Of a stretch of DNA of 64,000 bases, positions 21,129 through 46,203 are shown piece by piece (position 1 is the stretch's first letter; each line of letters opens with the position of its first letter). The stretch lies in IMG/VR virus record IMGVR_UViG_3300026521_000466, positions 100,798-164,797 of that record; one strand, 5' to 3'. The translations under genes and the position numbers were made by a program. The stretch comes from a virus. The notes below the pieces were generated by a model. The model ran no database searches and was not told where the DNA came from. It saw only the letters and a program-made list of their open reading frames with translations.

Positions 21129-22877
21129 TTACATAAAGTCGTCACCGAATCCGAATCCAGCTGTGCCGCTGAAGTCATCATCAATAAATCCACCAAATCC
21201 ATTATCGGAGAATCCGATGCTATCAAAGCTTGTAATGTCAGGCATTGCCAATCCACCACCCATATCTTCAACAGCAGGAATTTGTAGATTTATACCACAT
21301 TCACGAATTGCTCTAAATAGAGTCAATACGAATTCTGATGTTAAGAACACTCTCTCTTTTACGCCAGTGATTTTGATATCTGGCGATACCTTATTCATCA
21401 ATTTCAAGTAGAGATCCACTGAATTCATGGACTTGTCAAACAAACCATTGTCCAGCCTCATCTTGATGATTGCGTCTCTTACACCGAACTTTTTCAGTAC
21501 CATAAGGGTATCAATTTCATCCAGTGATCTTTCGCCTCGTCTGCCGTCTTTGAAATAGCCTGTAGGCATTGTAATAGACTGTCTTCCAAATATCTTTCTC
21601 TCCGGGAAGTTCAATGGAAATTTCCCATTCGTGAACTCATGAGCGCCTTTAACCAACTCTTTTAGATAAGGCTTGTTTGGATCTCCCTTACCGAATGCTT
21701 CTTTAGATGCTCTTAGTAGAGTAGTAAAGTGTACAGACTGAGACATAAATTTCGTTATGTCAAATGCTAACAATGGTGCGCCCTCTGCAAGATTAGATAG
21801 TAGATCCAATCTGTCTTCATATGGAATGGACTCATCAGCCAGGTTGATCTTCTTAGGTTCTTCATTACCAAGTGAATTTATGATCAGTTCCAGCTCGCCC
21901 GGGTTCTTGCCTGGTACACCCGCATTAGCCAATGCAATCTCCTTCCATCGTCCTTGTGCGGTGGCCGCTCCAGCAGCTGCAATGGTCATCAGTGTTGTCC
22001 CCAATGATGTTATAAACGCATCTTCCAATGCATTAACCACCATTACTGGGTGAGCTACAATCTTACCAGTTGCTTTCATTGCACGAGAAATCTTTGCATC
22101 AGCATGTGTTCTAATAGAAGCATTTCTACTAGACCCTGCCAAAAATTGGATGTTTCCGACTATTTTTCCAATTTGTACCGCTGTACCTTCATGATTTATT
22201 TCGTCGGAACCATCACCATCAATAGCTGTCATTGTGATTGAATACTCTACAAATTGCGGCATTCCATTTATAACATAGCCATCGTTTGCATTTATAATAG
22301 TAGGGTATGCCTTAATAGTTCTTGCATGCGCCAATAATTCACCGTATTGAGCTTCGGACCAACCGTTTTCATATTTAGCAGATACACTATTTATGAAGTT
22401 TGCCGCCAATGAACCATAGAATCGCACATTATTATCATCTGAAAGATCCACATTGGACCAGATGATATTTCCATCAATAGAGACCACTTTTATATCAGCG
22501 CCATATTTCTCTTTCAGGATAGTTGTTATTGCTTTACCTGCCCTAACGTTTAATGCGTTCGATGGAATAATTGGGGCACGTACGCCTCTATCAATCAATT
22601 CACTGTACTCTCTCGGCATGATTGCTTCTTTGTTTGTACATGCATAAACAAACAAGAAGTTTACAACTACATTGCCAACTTTTTTTGCCAAGATAGCTAT
22701 GTTATACGACAGATCATACTGTCCTTTTTCCAACGAAATCACAGTGATCTCTGAAAAAGCAGGTGTTTCTGCAAAGTAACTCTGGAGTTTATGGTTGAAT
22801 TCCTCAACCTCCGGATGTCTACCCTCGTTGGGGTCTACGAATGCTCGTTTTAAATCTGATAGGCTTTTTACTGCCAT
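21129..22877 (-). CDS. Candidate phage nuclear-shell (chimallin-like) protein
   Basis: The 582-residue protein has no enzyme motif I can see. It begins MAVKSLSDLKRAFVDPNEGR, has an alpha/beta body and ends in a Gly/Phe/Asp-rich tail (about 550-582). Reasons to suspect chimallin are: a length near the roughly 600 residues of known ChmA proteins; an unstructured C-terminal tail; its own promoter and terminator as expected of an abundant product; and a place next to RNA and DNA polymerase genes, as in phiKZ. An alternative is a major virion protein. The 5' leader of about 85 bases has a GCTACTTAGGTAGC hairpin. Assignment needs a structural comparison. Confidence 0.4.
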   Translation of the reverse strand: MAVKSLSDLKRAFVDPNEGRHPEVEEFNHKLQSYFAETPAFSEITVISLEKGQYDLSYNIAILAKKVGNVVVNFLFVYACTNKEAIMPREYSELIDRGVRAPIIPSNALNVRAGKAITTILKEKYGADIKVVSIDGNIIWSNVDLSDDNNVRFYGSLAANFINSVSAKYENGWSEAQYGELLAHARTIKAYPTIINANDGYVINGMPQFVEYSITMTAIDGDGSDEINHEGTAVQIGKIVGNIQFLAGSSRNASIRTHADAKISRAMKATGKIVAHPVMVVNALEDAFITSLGTTLMTIAAAGAATAQGRWKEIALANAGVPGKNPGELELIINSLGNEEPKKINLADESIPYEDRLDLLSNLAEGAPLLAFDITKFMSQSVHFTTLLRASKEAFGKGDPNKPYLKELVKGAHEFTNGKFPLNFPERKIFGRQSITMPTGYFKDGRRGERSLDEIDTLMVLKKFGVRDAIIKMRLDNGLFDKSMNSVDLYLKLMNKVSPDIKITGVKERVFLTSEFVLTLFRAIRECGINLQIPAVEDMGGGLAMPDITSFDSIGFSDNGFGGFIDDDFSGTAGFGFGDDFM

Positions 22878-28560: not shown

Positions 28561-29613
28561 TTATAAAAAATCATCCTCTTCAGCAACTTCATCCACTTTG
28601 TTAGCTTCAATAGGTGTCTTTAACTCTTCAAGTCTGTTGTCAAGATCCTCTATAATAGTGTTGATCTCACTAGCAGATGCAGTAATAACAAACGGATTGA
28701 TCTTCTCTTTCTCCATCATATTCACTAAATACTCAGAATATGGAATTCCATACCTTGGGTTCTTTGCGCTCAATGTAGGTAGTTTATCCTTAGAAAGTGA
28801 TAGTATACGTGCAGAGACAATATTGTTTAAGTGTGAGAAGTCCTCTTCACCGACAAAGTAATCGTATATGTAGATACCTCTTGGAAGTCGACCTACTTCA
28901 GACTCTAGTCTGACAGGATTTAAGAAAACAGCTATCTCTGTCTCATCTATCTGCATGTTATTACCGGAGATGAAGACAGCAAAGTTCTGTATGGCGTTAA
29001 CCATTAAGATATTTGTTGCTTCAATGTTATCCATTACATCTGTGACAGATACGTTGCCTTTGTTGTTTGCATTCTCATTAACATAGTAGAGTGTTAAGGC
29101 CCTATCCTGTCTAACCGCTGATGTATTATATAACTGTAGTGTCTTCTTTGTGTTAGATGCGTTAAGCATACTGCAATCATCACCTGAAGCAATAACCAAC
29201 ACATTCCTGTTCTCCTGCATCAACATATTAGCAACAATAGGTCCAATGGTAGAACCACTACCCCCGCCTAATGACCCAACAACCACATAGAATGTTCTCT
29301 TTGGATCATCATTCACTACAGAGACATCATTGAGAAACTTCACCACTCCATCTTTTACATCCGAAGCAACGTCTTTTCTAAGACCACCTGCCCCTGATAG
29401 CTTATCTCCTCCTACAGACTTTTTAGATATATGGTGAAAATAGACATCATTGTCATCTGCATGTCTTTTATTCGATTCACTGGTATCTATTACCAGGTAT
29501 TGCACTTCTGGAATGATTCCTTTGTTTTCAAGATTACCGAGTACCTTTTTAGTCTCTTCTACTAAAATAGCACCTGTGCCACCCACTCCAATGATTACCA
29601 TCTTATTGCTCAT
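28561..29613 (-). CDS. phuZ: Phage tubulin-like GTPase (PhuZ type)
   Basis: The 350-residue product shows the FtsZ/tubulin nucleotide-binding features: an N-terminal GVGGTG loop (9-14), the tubulin signature VGSLGGGSGST (112-122) and a T7-loop-like NMQIDETEI (219-227) that would complete the neighbour's GTPase site. It ends in an acidic tail (DEVAEEDDFL). In phiKZ-like phages this filament protein centres the phage nucleus and moves capsids. Length and tail agree with known PhuZ proteins. It is the last gene of an operon with a DHH phosphoesterase (1-base overlap) and is followed by a strong terminator. Confidence 0.85.
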   Translation of the reverse strand: MSNKMVIIGVGGTGAILVEETKKVLGNLENKGIIPEVQYLVIDTSESNKRHADDNDVYFHHISKKSVGGDKLSGAGGLRKDVASDVKDGVVKFLNDVSVVNDDPKRTFYVVVGSLGGGSGSTIGPIVANMLMQENRNVLVIASGDDCSMLNASNTKKTLQLYNTSAVRQDRALTLYYVNENANNKGNVSVTDVMDNIEATNILMVNAIQNFAVFISGNNMQIDETEIAVFLNPVRLESEVGRLPRGIYIYDYFVGEEDFSHLNNIVSARILSLSKDKLPTLSAKNPRYGIPYSEYLVNMMEKEKINPFVITASASEINTIIEDLDNRLEELKTPIEANKVDEVAEEDDFL

Positions 29614-30752
29614 TATCCTCTCCTTATAAGTTCAAGTTCACTTTTATAGAAGCTATAGTTCGGTTTACCATCATACAGCGTATTCTCACCATCTTCTACT
29701 ATATTGTCAATTTTATAATAGCAATCCTCTGCACCTTTTACATGCACTATATCACCTAGTTTAAAATCAATCGGTTGTGAAACGGCCTCGGTAATAGAAT
29801 CATGTATCATCTTCATTTGTCGTTCAGTCTGTTCTTCTGTAAGAACTCTTTTATGCACTACCAAATTTGATATGTCTGTAAGAGGCAGTCTAAATCCAGA
29901 TGCGTGTTTGTGCCCACCCCCTCCAAATTTCCTTGCTAACTCAAAGACATCTACGTCACCTATAGAGCGGAGAGAAACTATAATTTCCCTAATCCCTTCA
30001 TTGTTGGTGGCTATGAACCATTGAGCACATATATTATGCTCCCATCTCTCCGATACAAGATTTCCAACTTCGCTGATAAACATACGGTTGTTTAATGTAG
30101 GTATTTCCACACCGCCAAATGACACAACTGTAATATTTTCAGGTTTTGTTATAGAATCTACCAACTCATTCTTATACGCGATTCTTTCTGTAGTAGCCTC
30201 TGTAATAAAAGGAGTAACATCATATACAGAAAATCTATCCAGTGATGATAAGTCGTTCATATCAACTTCTTTACGAAAACCTTCAGTGAACGCATGTGTG
30301 TCAGGGAGTTTAAACAGCCATAGATCACGATCTTTTATATATTGCAAACATATAGGTATATCAGACATACCCATCAATGCCTTCCATGTAATTGTTGCAC
30401 CGGACTCATTCATATCAAATATGATATTAGGCAGTCCATCTAACTCTTTCTCTGCCGATGCATGATGGTCCAATACAACCACCTCTTTTGCGGCTTCGAT
30501 CATTTTCTTCATCTCATCTCTTTTAAGAGAGAAGTCTGTGAACAACACAAAACAACCACCATACTGTTCAAAATCAATAGCATCGCCGTACTGGACAAAC
30601 TCCACAAATGGTGCAAGTTCACTTGGAGTAATTGCCAATGCTGTTGAGATTGCCCATGCGGACCCCATGCCATCGGGACAGTTCTTGTGTGTAATTACCC
30701 TTAATGTTTTATTCTCGTATGCCTCATTTACTTTCTTAAATAGTTCTGTCAT
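29613..30752 (-). CDS. DHH/DHHA1 phosphoesterase
   Basis: The 379-residue protein carries the DHH family motifs in order: THKNCPDGMG (21-30), TDFS with Asp73, VLDHHAS (94-100) and the DHHA1 signature KFGGGGHKHASGF (275-287). Such enzymes (NrnA-like, RecJ-like) use manganese to hydrolyse short oligonucleotides, cyclic dinucleotides or pAp. The substrate cannot be read from the sequence. It lies directly upstream of the tubulin gene and in the same operon as the Tad1/Acb2-like protein. A role in removing signalling nucleotides is possible but unproven. It is separate from the RecJ domain at 33925-35826. Confidence 0.8.
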   Translation of the reverse strand: MTELFKKVNEAYENKTLRVITHKNCPDGMGSAWAISTALAITPSELAPFVEFVQYGDAIDFEQYGGCFVLFTDFSLKRDEMKKMIEAAKEVVVLDHHASAEKELDGLPNIIFDMNESGATITWKALMGMSDIPICLQYIKDRDLWLFKLPDTHAFTEGFRKEVDMNDLSSLDRFSVYDVTPFITEATTERIAYKNELVDSITKPENITVVSFGGVEIPTLNNRMFISEVGNLVSERWEHNICAQWFIATNNEGIREIIVSLRSIGDVDVFELARKFGGGGHKHASGFRLPLTDISNLVVHKRVLTEEQTERQMKMIHDSITEAVSQPIDFKLGDIVHVKGAEDCYYKIDNIVEDGENTLYDGKPNYSFYKSELELIRRG

Positions 30753-30766
30753 CTCTTTTTCCTTTT

Positions 30767-31051
30767 TTATTTAATATAGAGTACATCTACTGGTTTCAGT
30801 AGAATAATATCGTTTGATTCCAATAGCCTTCTACCTCTTCGCCTTCTTACAGCAATGATAGAGACAGGAAACTCTTTGTCTGTAACTAGAACATTAGTTG
30901 CTATGACAGTGTCCGTATCTGTATTATACACAGTGACATGTCTATCGTCTTTTCCAACTACTATTGTTGCTTTATTTAACAAACCTCTATCCATAACAGT
31001 AACATCATACTTCTTAGCAAATCGTCTAAGAATAGCTGACAACTTCTTCAT
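30767..31051 (-). CDS. Hypothetical protein, 94 aa
   Basis: No family recognised. A small beta-rich basic protein with an RRRRGRRLL cluster (about residues 69-77) that could contact nucleic acid. It lies between the Tad1/Acb2-like gene and the DHH gene. Confidence 0.6.
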   Translation of the reverse strand: MKKLSAILRRFAKKYDVTVMDRGLLNKATIVVGKDDRHVTVYNTDTDTVIATNVLVTDKEFPVSIIAVRRRRGRRLLESNDIILLKPVDVLYIK

Positions 31052-31061
31052 TTTTTTCCTT

Positions 31062-31391
31062 TTACTTTTTAATTTCTTCTGGAGTTCTTACCAGATGCGC
31101 GCTTCCATCTACCGTAGGGATATCTTCAATAGGCAAGTCTCTATCTACTAATACATCAAGATGTCGTTGTTCGTATAAGGAAAGCGCTTTCCTGATATGA
31201 AAAATTATCTCCTTATTATACGGATGATGTTTCTCTGCTTCCAGAACCTTTGTTCTATCTATTGCAACACGCAATAGCTCTTGGGTAATTGTCCCGTCTA
31301 TGCCCGCTTTATTATCGATAAACTTAATTATCTGTCCGCCTCTATGTTTGTTATCCACTCGATATACAAACCCCGCTTTTATAACATCCAT
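31062..31391 (-). CDS. Tad1/Acb2-like nucleotide-sponge candidate, 109 aa
   Basis: The central part resembles the hairpin-helix domain of phage Acb2 and Tad1 proteins. GGQIIKF (18-24) is followed by TQELLRVAIDR (37-47), then NKEIIFHIRKALSLYEQR (59-76). This last segment matches the ENAxALxxLExALxWLxxR pattern as I recall it. Acb2 and Tad1 oligomers bind cyclic di/trinucleotides and gcADPR and so block CBASS and Thoeris signalling. A C-terminal tail of about 30 residues is extra. The match is by eye and the binding-site residues cannot be checked here. It is expressed in the PhuZ operon. Confidence 0.45.
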   Translation of the reverse strand: MDVIKAGFVYRVDNKHRGGQIIKFIDNKAGIDGTITQELLRVAIDRTKVLEAEKHHPYNKEIIFHIRKALSLYEQRHLDVLVDRDLPIEDIPTVDGSAHLVRTPEEIKK

Positions 31392-31401
31392 CCCATATCC
31401 C

Positions 31402-31881
31402 TCATTTTATTCTATAGATAACAGTATCATCATTTTTAATCATCTCTATAGTCTCTGCTGTAGCTATTAATATACCATGTCTGTCTCTCATATTAAGCCT
31501 GTCGTCAAGAACACCCATATCTTTATCGTACCCTAACCTAATCAAATCTCCTTTCATACGATCTGCGAAAGGCACTTCAACTAACGTTCTTCCATAGAAC
31601 TCTTTTTTAAATATGTTCAATGTCAGTATAGACGCAAGAGAAAAACCAAATGGGAACCCAATTAGCAATGCGATGTCCATAGCTAAGTTGAACCAATTTG
31701 TTTTAAAGTCGTCTTTTATCATATCAATGATATCTATAATGCCTTCTTTGAAACGCTTAATAGTAAACATGTCAGAAACATTCAAAACCATAATTATAAC
31801 AAACGCCATAACTATACCACTAACAACCAATGTTATAACAAAACTTAACAGTGAGTATAGTGTAAATATATCCATTCCCAT
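31402..31881 (-). CDS. Small membrane protein, 159 aa
   Basis: Two clear hydrophobic segments are visible, at about residues 8-32 (LLSFVITLVVSGIVMAFVII) and about 66-88 (LAMDIALLIGFPFGFSLASI). They are followed by a soluble C-terminal half of about 70 residues. No family recognised. AAGGAG precedes the ATG. Located between the kinase-like and Tad1/Acb2-like genes. Confidence 0.65.
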   Translation of the reverse strand: MGMDIFTLYSLLSFVITLVVSGIVMAFVIIMVLNVSDMFTIKRFKEGIIDIIDMIKDDFKTNWFNLAMDIALLIGFPFGFSLASILTLNIFKKEFYGRTLVEVPFADRMKGDLIRLGYDKDMGVLDDRLNMRDRHGILIATAETIEMIKNDDTVIYRIK

Positions 31882-31885
31882 CTTA

Positions 31886-32386
31886 TCACTCCTTCTCTAC
31901 ATACATTAGAGTCATTAGGTACTCATATGCTTCATCTCTATGGATTTTAGGAAGATTTCCACATGACTTACTCTCTCGATCAGCTATATCCTCTTCACCC
32001 ATACCTCTCTCATTATATACTTTTTCAGGATCGTACTTTGCCACCAGTTCAATAGCAATCACCTCCACATCAGTGCCGTCAAATATCTCTTTAACTGCTT
32101 TGATATCTTTTGACGATAAAAAAGAGACAACAGAGTCTTTATCTGTATCTCTAAGATGATATCCATAATGATTCCCATCACCAGTCTCCATATGATGGAA
32201 AAATTTCCCTTCCATATAAAACTTATTAAACATCCCTTTACTTACATGTATGTAGTAATAAGGATCATCTTGACGACCTGTTCGTGTAGTATATATGGTC
32301 ACTGGCTGTATTCCAGCATCCACCAATTTTCTCTCTAAGGTAGTTTTACCCACTCCACTCTTACCGCATAAAACAATAAGTTTCAT
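31886..32386 (-). CDS. Guanylate-kinase-like P-loop protein, 166 aa
   Basis: The Walker A motif GKSGVGKTT is at residues 8-16, followed by TIYTTRTGRQDD (31-42), the TTRxxRxxE-like GMP-binding segment of guanylate kinases, and by YYIHVS (44-49). It would phosphorylate a nucleoside monophosphate, but the lid is not obvious. A paralog lies at 38129-38662 with the same GKSGVGKTTLERKL opening. AAGGAGAAGAG precedes the ATG. Confidence 0.65.
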   Translation of the reverse strand: MKLIVLCGKSGVGKTTLERKLVDAGIQPVTIYTTRTGRQDDPYYYIHVSKGMFNKFYMEGKFFHHMETGDGNHYGYHLRDTDKDSVVSFLSSKDIKAVKEIFDGTDVEVIAIELVAKYDPEKVYNERGMGEEDIADRESKSCGNLPKIHRDEAYEYLMTLMYVEKE

Positions 32387-32906: not shown

Positions 32907-33428
32907 TTAGTATCGCTCATATACATTATAGATAAGTTGTGCTTTATCCATACTTCCATAGTCACGTATCTTTTCACATGCAGTTGACGCATCCACAGCA
33001 AGCTCTTTCAAAAGTCTGGTTGAGCTGTAAGTCACAGCTTCTCCTGCCTTATAATGCGGTCTCAATACTTTATCCATAATCTGCGCAGACCTTAATAGAT
33101 TCCAACAAGATGCTTTAACTTCGCCATACAACCAAGATCTTTTACCATCATACATTTTAAGATATTGATCCCAATAAAGAACTCGCCTAGCCTTTGCTTT
33201 AAATGATCTTGATCTAGGAGTGTCTCTATAACCACACTCTATCATTACATTCTTTGCCGCATCCAAATCATTAGGGATAAATCTGGGATACCCAACCTTA
33301 TATGCAGCACCGTAAAACTTGTTCAGTTTTAACAGTGCATCCAATTCGTAAATAGCTGCTGCGCAACTATCAATATTAGCACTTAATGCACTAGCGAATA
33401 TTGCCATAATAAGAATAATCTTTTTCAC
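32907..33428 (-). CDS. Exported protein with signal peptide, 173 aa (GTG start)
   Basis: GTG at 33428 is chosen because AAAGGAG lies 5 bases upstream. It gives an immediate signal peptide of basic KK, then IILIMAIFASALSA with an Ala-x-Ala-like cleavage site. The mature part is about 155 residues, basic, with four cysteines that could form disulfides. No family recognised. A phage-encoded periplasmic protein could act in lysis, superinfection exclusion or envelope modification. Confidence 0.65.
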   Translation of the reverse strand: MKKIILIMAIFASALSANIDSCAAAIYELDALLKLNKFYGAAYKVGYPRFIPNDLDAAKNVMIECGYRDTPRSRSFKAKARRVLYWDQYLKMYDGKRSWLYGEVKASCWNLLRSAQIMDKVLRPHYKAGEAVTYSSTRLLKELAVDASTACEKIRDYGSMDKAQLIYNVYERY

Positions 33429-33487
33429 TTCTTCTCCTTTATTCTTCATAATTAATGTCTATTGACACACCTAAGTATACTCTACAT

Positions 33488-33924: not shown

Positions 33925-35826
33925 TTAATTTAAATGTTTAACTGCCATTAACTGCACCTTATCATCTATCTCAATAGTATAAGAGAAACTTACTTTTTCC
34001 CCGGGGTTATGACCGAATGATTTAAAATAGATCATCTCAGAATCTGTCTCTTCAAACCATAGTTTTGTTATTTTACCATAACTCTTTACCTTATGTATTG
34101 TAAAGGTACTTTCGTATATCGGATATGGATTACCTTGTCCATATGGTCTATTTTTCTCTATAGTAACAACCTCTTTTTGTATCTCTCTTGGATCTATTTT
34201 TATAGTCTCCTCTTCATCAGTGTATCCGATATTATTATCCTCAATATATTTCTCAAAATACTTTACAAAATCTTTTATTGCATCAGAGGTACCATTTATG
34301 GATACTCCACATGCGGCATGGTGCCCTCCGTAATGCAGTATTGAATCTGAGTTATCATTGATATATTGAAGTATATCTATAAGAGGTATCTTTTGTATAG
34401 CTCTAGCAGATCCTTTAAATGTATTGCCCACTCTGGTCAATACGAATGTAGGTGTATTTATTTCATTGCCTATTCTTCCTGCTACCAGCCCGTTAAAGGA
34501 CGTGGTATCCATGGGGTTCAATAACACCATCACATTCTTAAATAGCTTAGCATTGGCAGTCAGTTGCTTTAGAAGAACCGAGTATAATGAATTAGTTTGA
34601 TTCTTTCTATCCTTATTCATAAATGACATTTCGGATATCTTTGAAATATCTCCCATGAGAAACTCAAAAGCTATATTAGGTTTGGCTAGCCTATGAGTGG
34701 AATTTATTAATGGCCCTACATTCATAGATAGCCATCTGTCGTGCATGCGTTTCTTATAAGTGACTTTCAATAACTTATTGAATAGTTCAGACTCTTTTAT
34801 ATACTCCATAGCCTCATAATATGTTTTTCTATTCTCCTCATCTGCCATACTCATCTGATCTATTATATTTGCCATTGCCACAATAGGTAATAGTTCCTTT
34901 CTTAACTCCTTTGTAATAAACGGAGCAAGTAACCTAAAGAGCACATTGCATCCACTAAATGCTTTGTTAAGATTGCATTTACTATAGTGTGGGTTAATAA
35001 TGTGATCTACAGCATTTTCCAATGCAGATTCATTATCTACAAGGTGATGGTCTGTCATCACTATAACAACATTGGGCCTGTCATTTCTTAATCTATTAAA
35101 TCTTTCAGCGTCAGAAGAACCGTGATCCGCCGTAAGAAAAACAAATCTTTCAAACTTGTCGGTAATGGCTATTGTTCTATTAATAGTCTCATCAGAGACA
35201 CCTCTCGGATGCTCATTGTTTAAAAGGATGTGGTGTATCTTTTTATTCATGGACTTTAATACTTTCATACCAACTACTGATGATGAAATGCCATCTGCAT
35301 CATAATCAGTATTCACTACTACAGAGTCAATAGTCTGTAGCGGTACTCTAGCCTCTTCAAGAAGATTCCTCTCAGGAAAAACATCCCCTCGCAACACCAT
35401 CAGTATTCTACCTAAATGGTTATAACCAACACCTCGGCAAACTCCAAAATAGGTATCATTCCAAAAGTTATCTTCTACTATTCTTCCATCTATCTTTCTT
35501 AATTTATCCAACAACTCTTGATGTTGTGTAAACTTCAAACAGACTACCGCCTCCATAATTTCGCGTTTTATAGAATCCCAATCACTTCTTAACTTAATAT
35601 CTCTGCTTGCTTTCTTTACTTTACGCGGATTCTCTTCAGACAGGATAAACTCTCTCCATTTCGGATCATCTGATTTCATTGCCATATACGCATGTTCAGA
35701 TGTCGGATAAATAGTGTTATCGAATACTACATTAGGATACTTCTTCTTAAACTCTTCATCAGCTACCATTGTTACTGTAGCCGGATACATATTGGATAAA
35801 AATCCATACTCATCTTTAAATAACAT
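33925..35826 (-). CDS. NADAR domain fused to RecJ-like DHH/DHHA1 nuclease
   Basis: Residues 1-148 form a NADAR (YbiA/DUF1768) domain: YGFLSNMYP (7-15), YPTSEHAYMAMK (40-51, with the conserved Glu44) and VGYNHLGRILMVLR (133-146). Residues about 165-510 form a RecJ-like DHH nuclease: VNTDYDADGIS (171-181), TADHGSSD (232-239), MTDHH (257-261) and DHHA1 HYGGHHAACG (498-507). A beta-rich C-terminal domain follows (about 560-633). NADAR proteins hydrolyse N-glycosidic bonds and include enzymes that remove ADP-ribose from guanosine. RecJ degrades 5'-ended single-stranded DNA. The fusion suggests cleaning or removal of modified DNA; this coupling is inference. All catalytic motifs appear intact. Confidence 0.85.
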   Translation of the reverse strand: MLFKDEYGFLSNMYPATVTMVADEEFKKKYPNVVFDNTIYPTSEHAYMAMKSDDPKWREFILSEENPRKVKKASRDIKLRSDWDSIKREIMEAVVCLKFTQHQELLDKLRKIDGRIVEDNFWNDTYFGVCRGVGYNHLGRILMVLRGDVFPERNLLEEARVPLQTIDSVVVNTDYDADGISSSVVGMKVLKSMNKKIHHILLNNEHPRGVSDETINRTIAITDKFERFVFLTADHGSSDAERFNRLRNDRPNVVIVMTDHHLVDNESALENAVDHIINPHYSKCNLNKAFSGCNVLFRLLAPFITKELRKELLPIVAMANIIDQMSMADEENRKTYYEAMEYIKESELFNKLLKVTYKKRMHDRWLSMNVGPLINSTHRLAKPNIAFEFLMGDISKISEMSFMNKDRKNQTNSLYSVLLKQLTANAKLFKNVMVLLNPMDTTSFNGLVAGRIGNEINTPTFVLTRVGNTFKGSARAIQKIPLIDILQYINDNSDSILHYGGHHAACGVSINGTSDAIKDFVKYFEKYIEDNNIGYTDEEETIKIDPREIQKEVVTIEKNRPYGQGNPYPIYESTFTIHKVKSYGKITKLWFEETDSEMIYFKSFGHNPGEKVSFSYTIEIDDKVQLMAVKHLN

Positions 35827-37122: not shown

Positions 37123-37872
37123 ATGAATAGATTTATCTTTACAAGTTATTATGCGAACCCGACTAAAGCACTGAAAGAGAAGTATTCCATATCAAATATC
37201 ACACCTAAATGGTTTGAAGTTGACGGAACAATAGAAGAACTATACCCTGATAAAGAATCTGTTTTTGATTATAAGAAAGGAATAATAACAACAGCGGAGT
37301 TTATAAACATATATAGAAAGAAACTACACGGGCTAGATAAGGACCTAATCAATAGCTTATACGGAAAATCTTTATTCTGTTACGAAAAACCATCGGATTT
37401 CTGCCATAGACATCTGCTCCGTGAATACTTACAGTTGCGAGGCGAAATATGTATAGAAATACCAAATACCAAACTTCCTTCTATTGGAGCGGTCGGGTCA
37501 AGAGGCTTCAATGATAAAGAGATACTTTATAGTATAATGGATGAATTATCCGATATGTTTGATTATAAAGTGATATCCGGCGGAGCACGCGGCGCAGATA
37601 GTTTAGGAGAGAAATATGCGGTGGAGAATAAGAAAGAAACTTTAATTCATCTTCCTGATTGGGAAAAACATGGTAAGCCGGCAGCCTTTATACGAAACAA
37701 AAACATAGTGGATGATTCGGATATAATATTGGCATTCTGGGATGGCGAATCAAGAGGTACAAAAAATACTATTGATATAGCCTACAGACAACATAAGCAA
37801 ATAATTATATATGACTACAAAGAAAAAAGGTTATATTTACATACAATGAAAAAATACCTTTATAAGAAGTGA
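37123..37872 (+). CDS. DUF488 domain fused to a SLOG (YspA-type) domain
   Basis: Residues 1 to about 110 fit DUF488: FTSYYANPTKAL near the start and the signature LFCYEKPSDFCHRHLL (84-99). Residues about 118-230 fit the DUF2493/YspA SLOG Rossmann fold: AVGSRGF (123-129), SGGARGADSLG (152-162), RNKNIVDDSD (191-200) and FWDGESRGT (205-213). SLOG domains bind nucleotides, including NAD- or ADP-ribose-related ligands, and several act in defence signalling. DUF488 function is unsettled. It is a single plus-strand gene with CAGGAG before the ATG and a terminator after it. Its role as a sensor, sponge or hydrolase of a signalling nucleotide is inference. Confidence 0.75.
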   Translation: MNRFIFTSYYANPTKALKEKYSISNITPKWFEVDGTIEELYPDKESVFDYKKGIITTAEFINIYRKKLHGLDKDLINSLYGKSLFCYEKPSDFCHRHLLREYLQLRGEICIEIPNTKLPSIGAVGSRGFNDKEILYSIMDELSDMFDYKVISGGARGADSLGEKYAVENKKETLIHLPDWEKHGKPAAFIRNKNIVDDSDIILAFWDGESRGTKNTIDIAYRQHKQIIIYDYKEKRLYLHTMKKYLYKK

Positions 37873-38128: not shown

Positions 38129-38662
38129 CTATATATAGTCATTAAATACAGACATAGCAGATTCAAATGAATTATCTCTATTAAACGTAATAATATTAAT
38201 GCTCTTATCAAGTTTATCATAGTTTCCAGCAATACCCAAAGATTGTCTATTAACATACTCTATATGAGAACGTGATCTCTCTTTTACTGCATTGTCGTCC
38301 ACATTATTATCCTGAAATATAGCATAAGTTACCTTGAACCCTGCCTTAATGGCAATGTGAGATATATCAAATGCGTTTCCATGGTAAATAAATGAGACTA
38401 CATAATTACCATTCTCTTTTGGAAGCGTATATCCATATACTCTATCATTCACCTCAGTATGAAAAGAAAAATCAAATTCACCGTGCATCTGCATGTCGTA
38501 AAATTCTTCAGCGCTGACATAATTGTAACTAGAAACATCGTCCTTACGTCGTTCTCTATCTGTATAAATAGGAACTCCGACAACACCGTGATTCATTAAT
38601 TTTCTTTCCAGTGTGGTTTTACCCACTCCACTCTTACCAACTATAACTAATAATTTTTTCAT
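38129..38662 (-). CDS. Guanylate-kinase-like P-loop protein, 177 aa (paralog of 31886-32386)
   Basis: VGKSGVGKTTLERKLMNHGV is almost identical to the opening of the gene at 31886. IYTDRERRKDD (31-41) replaces the TTR segment and YNYVSAEEF follows as in guanylate kinases. The C-terminal half has diverged. Two related kinase-like proteins next to ribonucleotide reductase suggest dNMP phosphorylation, or one may have changed ligand. A hairpin with AGAGGTCT arms lies between the upstream stop and its GGGAGG site. Confidence 0.6.
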   Translation of the reverse strand: MKKLLVIVGKSGVGKTTLERKLMNHGVVGVPIYTDRERRKDDVSSYNYVSAEEFYDMQMHGEFDFSFHTEVNDRVYGYTLPKENGNYVVSFIYHGNAFDISHIAIKAGFKVTYAIFQDNNVDDNAVKERSRSHIEYVNRQSLGIAGNYDKLDKSINIITFNRDNSFESAMSVFNDYI

Positions 38663-42828: not shown

Positions 42829-45800
42829 TCATTGGCAACCTGAACAGGTAACAAAGTCATCCTGTGTCAATTCATCTATCTCTTCCGGGGATTTGCCTCT
42901 TGCATAGTAAATGCTTGATACACCTAAGTGTCTTGCATAATGATAGAGAATTCCCAAATCTCTTGTTGAGTTACTAATACCTGTATCTGGGAATAGGTTT
43001 CCGGATGGTGCTTGGTCAATCCATTGCTGCACCACAGCTAGGTTTTGAATAACTTTCATCTGATCTATCTCATATGCTGATTTATAGAACTTGATAGTGT
43101 TGATATTCAGGTCAGGTACCACTGATCTAAATTCACCAACGCTGGTCTTATCAGTATATACTCTTTTAAAGATAGGTTCTATGGACGGAGTAGTATTCGT
43201 GATAACAGCAATATTTGTAGTTGGAGCCACTGCCATAACATAAAGGTTTCTCATGCCTTTACTGGTTTTCTCTCTCAGTTGGTCCCAATCCATACTCCAT
43301 GGTCTATCCACTATCTTCTTGATATTCTCATTGGCAAAATCTACAGGCAATACTCCTTTTTCCCATTCACTGCCTTTGAATCCTGGGGCGACTCCTTTTT
43401 CAACAGCTAGATCGGCTGATGCCTGATATGCATAATAAGATACCCACTCCATAATCTGGTCAATACGTTGAAGTGCCTCTTTTGAACCAAACTCAAGTCC
43501 CTCTTTGGCAAGTAGATGATGCTCGCCCATAACACCAAGACCGATAGCTCTTGTCTTCATTGCATGTCTGAATGCACCGCCAACAGGATAGTAATTTATA
43601 TCGATGATATTATCGAGTGCTCTGATCATAATAGGTACAACTCTCTTAATATCCTCTTCAGTGTTTATCTTGGATATATTTAAAGAAGCAAGAGTACAGA
43701 CGAATATTTCATCATCTTCTATTTTATTCTCTGTGTACCCAATATTCACTCCTTTATAGAAATCATTTGGGGCCAGTTTGCTATATGGCCTTCCACTCTC
43801 TGATATATCACTGCCAAGCTCTTTACCTAAAAGTTTACCTTCCCTGTCATAAACGTATGTATAGAGCTCTCCTGCTTTCGCATACTGGCTTATTTCACAA
43901 CAGAGATTAGAACTATAGATAGTTCCGAGGTGTTTATTCATATGCCTCCTGTTCATCTCATCTTTATCAACGCAGTAAGGCTCACCGGATGTCAATGCTA
44001 TAGACATAATGCTGGTATAGAGATCAGCTGCTTTCACCACCTCTTTACTAATGGAACTTGAACGTTCATAATGTTCATACCTCTCTTTGAATTCATCTCC
44101 ATAGAGATCCAACAGATCGGTAACATCATGCGGATCAAACAGCGTCCATGTTTCATTGTTTCTAACTCTCTCCATGAAGAGTTTGTTCTCCCACATAGCA
44201 ATATTCATATCGTATGCTCTACGTCTTACATCACCTGTAGGTTTATGTAGCTCCAAGAACTCTTTAAAATCTTTGTTCCATGGCTCAAGATAGACTGCTA
44301 TTGCACCCTTTCTTGTATTGTGGGTTAGAAGATATCTATCTTTTCCTTCGTCTACACCAACATGCACGAAATAGTTATTATTATGTTCGATTGTATAGTC
44401 CACAAACACCTCATCACTATCACCACCTACTGTAAATATAACTTTCTCTTCACCAAGATTGGATATTGTAACTTCACCTTCTACCACCTCGTCAGCTCGC
44501 TTATATACAATATTACTATTCTCAACAATCGGAGTAGGATGCCATGCACTGGTAGTATAAGAACCAAGTGTCGTTGTGATTTCAGTTTGTGCTAGGGAAG
44601 GTACTCTTACGGTATGTTTAGAGACTAACTTCCTTACCTCTTTTTTACCAGTCTCATTGTTTAAAGACAACGCTAACATACCAGGTTCAATTTCAGAATG
44701 GTATAGAGGAATATATGTAATTGCACTTTCAATATCATCCATTGCATTTACAATATTGATAAGTTCTTCAATAGTTGGTTTATCTGCATTGTTGATATCT
44801 ATTTTCTCTGTTACTATAGTGAGATTTTTTAGATTGACATTATGGGTATTATTGTCTTTATGATAAACAAGTCCCTTTTCATATCCGAGATAAGTCAATG
44901 CCATAACTGTAGCAATGTAATACTTTTTCTCATCAATGCTTGCAGTCAATACTTTACCGCCTTTTGATAGTTTAGCAGGTACTGTTGCAAGAGTATATCT
45001 ATTTATCATAAGTCCAAACTCATTGATCATATAGTCTTCTAGTCCTTTAACTTTTATATCCGTAAACCCTTTTGGAAGATATCTACCATTAATTGCATTT
45101 GCTAACTCAGGAACATCCGCATCTATGGATCTGCCACATAGATATTTTTCTATCTTAAGCATCTTTTCATTATAATTTTCATCATTTTCATCAAGGATTT
45201 CACTTACTATATCAGATACGTAGTTATCTCTAGCATCGCTATATTTGACATAATATTTTTCTTCCCGCACATTGTATGTCACGCCATCAACTGTGATAGT
45301 ATCAATAATAGCAATACGACTATTACTAGAGACACACCCCAACTGGTCAAACTCTAACTGAATAGCATTCGTTGTAACTGCCAATGGAACAACACCGCCT
45401 GATGCTCCCGGTATACCATCAACTACAGAACCGTCAGTCCTGACAAAACCATCTGACCAACCGATGCCACCACCGAATTTACTAAGTATAGCCATTACAG
45501 TTCTTGAGTGCATGATTCCCTCTGCACTATCATGTGTTACACCGCCATAACAGCTATTCAGCTGACATCTGATACTTCTGGCATTTGCCAGCGTCGGAGT
45601 ACTGTGCATAAAGTTAAACTGAGATACTTCACTATAGTGTTGTTCTGCATAGTGTTCTTTAAGTCCGTCTGGTTCATTCTGCATTAAAACCATTGCTACC
45701 GACATAAAGACGAACTGTGGTAACTCAAAAGGCTCTTCGTTCACAGATTTAATATATCTCTGTCTAAATGTATAAGCACCTACATAACTGAACTGATCAT

Positions 45801-46203
45801 CTCTGTCATGTTTAATAGCTTTTGCCAATCTATCAAGGTCATAGCTCAAAAGAACTTTATCAAAGATGCCGTGTTCAACCCCATACTCTATATACTTTCT
45901 AAACGAAAGACCACCCAATGTTTTAGTAACTTGATGTCTAAGATCATAAAGAAACAATCTCCCTGCTAATACTGCATTGTCAACTGCATCAATATCAATA
46001 TCCAAAACAATGATCATAATCAGTGTTTGATGTATCTGCTCCGTAGTCATACCATCTTTGATATTCTCCATGAACTTTTTCATTATTGATGTCTTATCGA
46101 CATTTAGTTCATTAGAAGCATACTCTAAGAAACCATAGATTTTGTCTATGTTAAATGGTTCTACTCTACCATCCCTCTTTATTACATTGATTTTCTCTTT
46201 CAA
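42829..46203 (-). CDS. nrdA: Ribonucleotide reductase class I large subunit with intein
   Basis: The 1124-residue precursor starts at TTG (46203, AAAGGAC 6 bases upstream). It shows an ATP-cone N-terminus (about 5-90), Cys218 (NSCYGG), the active-site NLCCE (Asn766, Cys768, Glu770), Cys836 (VCTLASLNIS), the Tyr pair 1099-1100 for radical transfer and the C-terminal redox pair in TCSGCQ (1120, 1123). The normal chain is interrupted after FDQLG (289) and resumes at TRKGAIAVYLEPW (630), with a 340-residue intein between. The mature extein would be 784 residues, normal for NrdA. It is transcribed ahead of nrdB and divergent from the lysis cassette. Confidence 0.9.
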   Translation of the reverse strand: MKEKINVIKRDGRVEPFNIDKIYGFLEYASNELNVDKTSIMKKFMENIKDGMTTEQIHQTLIMIIVLDIDIDAVDNAVLAGRLFLYDLRHQVTKTLGGLSFRKYIEYGVEHGIFDKVLLSYDLDRLAKAIKHDRDDQFSYVGAYTFRQRYIKSVNEEPFELPQFVFMSVAMVLMQNEPDGLKEHYAEQHYSEVSQFNFMHSTPTLANARSIRCQLNSCYGGVTHDSAEGIMHSRTVMAILSKFGGGIGWSDGFVRTDGSVVDGIPGASGGVVPLAVTTNAIQLEFDQLGCVSSNSRIAIIDTITVDGVTYNVREEKYYVKYSDARDNYVSDIVSEILDENDENYNEKMLKIEKYLCGRSIDADVPELANAINGRYLPKGFTDIKVKGLEDYMINEFGLMINRYTLATVPAKLSKGGKVLTASIDEKKYYIATVMALTYLGYEKGLVYHKDNNTHNVNLKNLTIVTEKIDINNADKPTIEELINIVNAMDDIESAITYIPLYHSEIEPGMLALSLNNETGKKEVRKLVSKHTVRVPSLAQTEITTTLGSYTTSAWHPTPIVENSNIVYKRADEVVEGEVTISNLGEEKVIFTVGGDSDEVFVDYTIEHNNNYFVHVGVDEGKDRYLLTHNTRKGAIAVYLEPWNKDFKEFLELHKPTGDVRRRAYDMNIAMWENKLFMERVRNNETWTLFDPHDVTDLLDLYGDEFKERYEHYERSSSISKEVVKAADLYTSIMSIALTSGEPYCVDKDEMNRRHMNKHLGTIYSSNLCCEISQYAKAGELYTYVYDREGKLLGKELGSDISESGRPYSKLAPNDFYKGVNIGYTENKIEDDEIFVCTLASLNISKINTEEDIKRVVPIMIRALDNIIDINYYPVGGAFRHAMKTRAIGLGVMGEHHLLAKEGLEFGSKEALQRIDQIMEWVSYYAYQASADLAVEKGVAPGFKGSEWEKGVLPVDFANENIKKIVDRPWSMDWDQLREKTSKGMRNLYVMAVAPTTNIAVITNTTPSIEPIFKRVYTDKTSVGEFRSVVPDLNINTIKFYKSAYEIDQMKVIQNLAVVQQWIDQAPSGNLFPDTGISNSTRDLGILYHYARHLGVSSIYYARGKSPEEIDELTQDDFVTCSGCQ
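44317..45336 (-). mobile_element. Intein with HNH-type homing endonuclease inside nrdA
   Basis: Residues 290-629 of the NrdA precursor begin with Cys (CVSSNSRIAI) and end in THN followed by Thr, the standard splice junctions. The C-terminal block NYFVHVGVDEGKDRYLLTHN matches intein blocks F and G. In the middle, YHKDNNTHNVNLKNLTIVT (447-465) matches the HNH_3 pattern HHxDxxxxNNxxxNLxxV, although the first residue of the usual HH pair is Tyr. The insertion lies in the conserved DQxG segment of the reductase, a known type of intein site. Confidence 0.85.

Follow-up and report, generated by a model that had tools for sequence, protein, structure and literature searches.

A divergent Tad1 homologue with a partly replaced putative ligand pocket, encoded near the phage tubulin gene of a nucleus-forming jumbo phage

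The window analysed here, a stretch of 64,000 nucleotides (positions 100,798 to 164,797 of the IMG/VR virus record IMGVR_UViG_3300026521_000466), contains an open reading frame at 31062-31391 on the minus strand, which, as judged from its sequence, is a real gene of Tad1 family descent that encodes a divergent Tad1 homologue of 109 aa. Tad1 is a phage protein that sequesters signalling molecules of bacterial immunity. We favour the reading, with a probability of about 0.6, that infected cells produce the protein and that it captures a nucleotide signal with a shifted specificity. We infer that it oligomerises, binds a ligand, acts against host defence and, in view of a shortened loop and an altered tail, has changed its ligand preference.

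The frame has an ATG start, 109 codons and a TAA stop, and its translation holds the peptides GGQIIKF, TQELLRVAIDR and NKEIIFHIRKALSLYEQR, in agreement with a preliminary description of this DNA, which had reported the position and these peptides. The codon-usage score is 0.252 bits per codon (neighbouring genes, 0.26-0.37), and 2000 out-of-frame or antisense stretches used as controls gave a mean of -0.07 and a maximum of 0.17. This phage-like codon usage, beyond all 2000 controls, indicates that 31062-31391 is a genuine gene. Gaps of 10 bp on either side separate it from its neighbours, which are encoded on the same minus strand. Directly downstream lies a 94-aa ORF (30767-31051) with no family found in Pfam or PHROGs, followed by a DHH/DHHA1 phosphoesterase of the NrnA-like type (29613-30752, phrog_4771) and the phage tubulin PhuZ (28561-29613, phrog_4733), so that the ORF was correctly described as being upstream of the phosphoesterase and the tubulin, with one small gene in between. 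Directly upstream is a 159-aa ORF (31402-31881), in which hydrophobic N-terminal segments can be read from the sequence, and farther along are a guanylate-kinase-like protein (31886-32386, phrog_1815) and a 180-aa protein with a signal-peptide-like start (32907-33449), for which Pfam and PHROGs searches found no family. The genes around the ORF are tightly packed and form a non-virion run with nucleotide-metabolism genes. A second guanylate-kinase-like paralogue is present at 38129-38662 (minus strand), about 6 kb from the first copy.

A PHROGs profile search of the ORF against 38,880 families returned a single family, phrog_2428 (E 2.1e-4). Gene 82 of the Acinetobacter phage ABMM1 (ABMM1_82) is a strong member of this family, and tblastn with ABMM1_82 retrieves both the founding Tad1, from SBSphiJ7, and phiKZ gp184. 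With a Tad1 HMM built from 41 homologues (38 of 80 loci were taken from one search, near-duplicates being removed by eye), the ORF reaches 19.5 bits, whereas no score above 8.1 bits came from the 744 remaining ORFs of the record, some of which were counted twice in overlapping stretches, or from 5000 shuffles of the protein. A 17-row Tad1 alignment that did not include the ORF matched only this locus when searched against the 164.8 kb record (E 4.3e-5). The hhalign comparison of the ORF with the same alignment gave a probability of 90.7% (E 1.2e-6) over residues 5-79, a match that covers strands as well as helices; the score was 42.1, versus 21.2 for the runner-up among 820 controls, of which 520 were further ORFs and 300 were shuffles. 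In pairwise comparisons, the ORF scores 38.5 bits to L170, a Tad1 homologue from a viral contig, and 37.7 bits to L206, the Tad1 of a 219.8 kb PhuZ-bearing IMG/VR record (G038), with 30.8 bits for the best of 5000 shuffles. The nearest relatives, with about 39% identity across 49-53 residues, are Tad1s of canonical type. The best-matching relative of jumbo size is L206 (39% identity over 49 aa, with the run IDRTKVL in common), which is in turn 48% identical to SBSphiJ7 Tad1 over the 77 columns of the hairpin, but differs from the ORF in its canonical FQKGPVKEAGVNG loop, its RGVEG tail and its location about 19 kb from its own PhuZ. The profile, profile-profile and pairwise tests agree on Tad1 and on no other family, which bears out the Tad1 part of the earlier assignment.

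The Pfam search of the ORF gave nothing significant, and PF24729 (Acb2_Tad1_hairpin) was unmatched. This model detects SBSphiJ7 Tad1 and also misses phiKZ gp184, and its silence is therefore no refutation of Tad1 homology. No Tad1 was found by phmmer of the ORF directly against the PDB, the single protein had no match in 37 related records, and scans of viral contigs and of the related records found no close orthologue. Single-protein scans with the DHH phosphoesterase, PhuZ and the DNA polymerase likewise revealed no close relative. The viral-contig scan with the ORF protein yielded two candidates that were rejected (L001 and L002), representing a long phage protein that has the words DRTKVLEAEK in common with the query. 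A tblastn search of plasmids with most of the ORF returned seven records, all with E of 0.3 or worse; five of the seven are from Acinetobacter, and these resemble the phage match in kind (34%). The preliminary description had also named Acb2, and this part does not hold: hhalign of the ORF against four Acb2s (T4 Vs.4 and three relatives) gave a probability of 0.3%, and PF24729 is unmatched. The Tad1 and Acb2 profiles are themselves barely alignable by hhalign (3.4%). Both Acb2 (T4 Vs.4) and Tad1 are phage sponges with a helical hairpin, and Pfam joins the two hairpins in PF24729, but Acb2 has no detectable sequence relation to the ORF and lacks the N-terminal strands.

The ORF product is predicted to have a strand-strand-helix-helix layout. 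An AlphaFold2 model calculated with 15 Tad1 homologues has strands at about residues 9-12 and 20-23, helices at about 34-54 and 57-83, and a 26-residue tail, with a mean pLDDT of 67 (mostly 84-94 in the helix blocks and below 50 in the tail). VIA-align matched this model to four Tad1 entries with Z of 7.5-8.0 over 80-81 residues at 17-20% identity, a Z range also reached by unrelated helical hairpins; in the remaining rows listed, 46-69 residues are aligned, mostly helices alone. Since the input alignment consisted of Tad1s, the fold match is partly circular and not independent. Foldseek alone listed 50 matches for the model, with no Tad1 among them, and gave no match with E below 0.001 against the PDB and BFVD. 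The single-sequence model is poor (pLDDT 45), places strands first and then helices, and gave no useful structural match. The Tad1 fold is described in PMC12043709 as an N-terminal antiparallel four-strand sheet with two long C-terminal helices; the model of the ORF, at pLDDT 67 and from a Tad1-biased alignment, has two strands and two helices, and the N-terminus is too short for the first two of the four strands.

Residue conservation was counted in 54 homologues, including 13 of 19 additional ORFs; the rows L178, L180, L182, L192, L193 and L194 were left out because of misread strand or frame. Conserved residues still present in the ORF are Y10 (Y or F in 54/54), F24 (51/54), G30 (51/54), G33 (54/54), L39 (52/54), R46 (47/54), N59 (50/54), A69 (45/54) and R76 (52/54). 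It has lost the Q of FQ (conserved in 51/54), the G of the GP loop (51/54) and an E (46/54), as well as the equivalents of R131 (48/54), R134 (45/54) and G135 (48/54). The loop FQxGPxxExGxNG is thus reduced to F24, G30 and G33 and is three residues shorter, and N82 is replaced by D32 (NG to DG), a change also found in three of the 54 homologues. The RGVEGT tail is displaced by an insertion of about 9-11 residues, after which TVDGS follows, with VDGS in place of VEGT. R76 is followed by 33 residues and its counterpart in SBSphiJ7 Tad1 by 15, so the long C-terminal tail that had been remarked upon is real. The residues of CbTad1 that bind gcADPR we take to be F82, N92, R109 and R113, for which the alignment gives L50, N59, R76 and V80 as the counterparts. 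Two of the four ligand positions are therefore kept (N59 and R76) and two are not (L50 for F82 and V80 for R113).

According to PMC12043709, the walls of the Tad1 pocket are formed by conserved loops, both helices and the C-terminal tail, and the changes seen in the ORF thus fall on the pocket. Compared with the Tad1s of SBSphiJ7, Cb (CbTad1, 7uav) and Cm (CmTad1, 8kbb), the ORF is alike in its profile homology over residues 5-79, in its predicted strand(s) and two long helices, in the hairpin's N and R ligand residues and in the GxxG loop preceding helix 1. In contrast, it has too few residues for two of the four N-terminal strands, its FQxGPxxExG segment is shortened by three with Q, GP and E gone, it has DG for NG and V80 for the second pocket arginine, and its shifted tail reads TVDGS. 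Because the loop, the tail and two pocket residues depart from the family pattern, we class it as a divergent and not a canonical Tad1. Other chimallivirus-type Tad1s without the RGVEGT tail are L187 and L189. Tad1-like ORFs with a degenerate loop were observed as two tandem pairs in chimallivirus-type records, L190 with L196 in G009 and L191 with L195 in G021.

A Tad1-like match (alignment A4) is present in 17 of the 37 related records at E<=1 and in 16 at E<=0.001, the source record being excluded; the match in G015 has an internal stop. A conserved PhuZ-Tad1 neighbourhood was considered and rejected, as in none of the 15 other records with PhuZ and a Tad1-like match are the two closer than about 11 kb, so a PhuZ-adjacent Tad1 is special to the source phage among the records compared. 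As to a Tad1-DHH link, the match and the DHH gene are about 9 to 24 kb apart in the other five records with both, a set too small and too closely related to carry weight.

The resemblance to Tad1 could be that of an unrelated two-helix protein and due to chance, given the weak single-sequence scores, the blank Pfam result and the fact that helical hairpins are common. We regard this as very improbable, since none of the 520 other ORFs or the 300 shuffles comes near its hhalign score, the HMM and pairwise scores exceed every control, and the match extends through the strands. It is also possible, although unlikely, that a Tad1-fold protein has lost ligand binding and keeps its hairpin for assembly or protein binding, being either a relic or a small protein that was exapted. 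The loss of the GP loop, of the R113 equivalent and of the RGVEGT tail points in this direction, as do L190, L191, L195 and L196, which are more degenerate still in the same segments and stand in two tandem pairs. Yet the coding signal of the ORF is intact, N59 and R76, the two most conserved ligand positions of the hairpin, are retained, and the VDG of the tail could substitute for VEG.

Another explanation takes phiKZ gp184 as the model, a Tad1 that is packaged in the virion and injected along with the genome. This chimallivirus protein belongs to the same family, and its phage to the same broad nucleus-forming group; it is annotated as a structural protein, is present in PDB entry 8y6v, and is described as injected in PMC13282480. 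However, gp184 has 230 aa, a virion annotation, a canonical loop and a QGTEGT tail, and the ORF, with 109 aa, is without its long N-terminal part. In addition, the ORF lies beside PhuZ amid nucleotide-metabolism genes and not among recognised virion genes. The 15 other records with both genes keep the Tad1-like match at least about 11 kb from PhuZ. A packaged protein is thus improbable here. According to the sponge reading that we prefer, the product would be expressed in the infected cell from the non-virion gene run, would assemble via its two-helix hairpin and would hold a nucleotide immune signal, either an isomer of cyclic ADP-ribose or a cyclic di- or trinucleotide, such that the Thoeris or CBASS effector would stay inactive. 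Tad1 itself forms a hexamer of three dimers and binds gcADPR as well as cyclic di- and trinucleotides. For phiKZ Tad1, blocking of both CBASS and Thoeris is reported in PMC13282480.

Two further genes lie within 6 kb of the Tad1-like ORF. One encodes a 633-aa fusion of a NADAR domain to a DHH/DHHA1 RecJ-like exonuclease (33925-35826, minus strand; Pfam and PHROGs searches), for which a literature search turned up no related paper, and the other a protein with a DUF488-like and a YspA-type SLOG domain (37123-37872, plus strand, opposite to the Tad1-like ORF). They are about 1.3 kb apart and possibly form a small cluster of ADP-ribose-related genes. A Macro domain is encoded elsewhere in the same record. 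Phage NADAR, SLOG and Macro proteins are argued, in PMC9503650, to counter immune signals derived from ADP-ribose, and the presence of such genes in the record fits a sponge for an ADP-ribose-type signal without proving it. The DHH phosphoesterase (29613-30752) is a possible, putative functional partner of the Tad1-like protein. More speculatively, the rebuilt loop and tail might hold a different immune nucleotide, and the protein might form, in one operon with this phosphoesterase, a bind-and-destroy pair beside the NADAR-RecJ and SLOG genes of a nucleus-forming phage; we consider this rather doubtful.

The whole viral record has 164,797 bp and is probably an incomplete genome. It encodes a very divergent ChmA-like nuclear shell protein (21129-22877, minus strand; phrog_4795, E 1.2e-13), parts of a multi-subunit RNA polymerase, and a DNA polymerase of the phiKZ type with just 28-30% identity to those of named phages, which together identify the source as a deep-branching nucleus-forming (chimallivirus-type) jumbo phage. 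According to PMC13282480, no anti-defence protein of jumbo phages has been described other than Tad1, in the form of the injected protein of phiKZ, and the ORF extends the family to a much more distant nucleus-forming phage. A literature search by title and abstract found no Tad1 variant of this kind, which lacks the extended N-terminus of gp184, is encoded in a run of non-virion genes and has a partly replaced pocket, and the ORF offers a concrete case for asking how a sponge might switch its ligand. Together with the Tad1-like matches in 17 of the 37 related records, the ORF suggests widespread signal sequestration in this group of phages, and the phage nucleus would presumably offer no shield against cytoplasmic signals.

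The window also encodes the large subunit NrdA, with 1124 aa (42829-46203, minus strand), in which HNH endonuclease families match approximately residues 383-472. Two NrdA parts flank this match, an arrangement like that of an intein.
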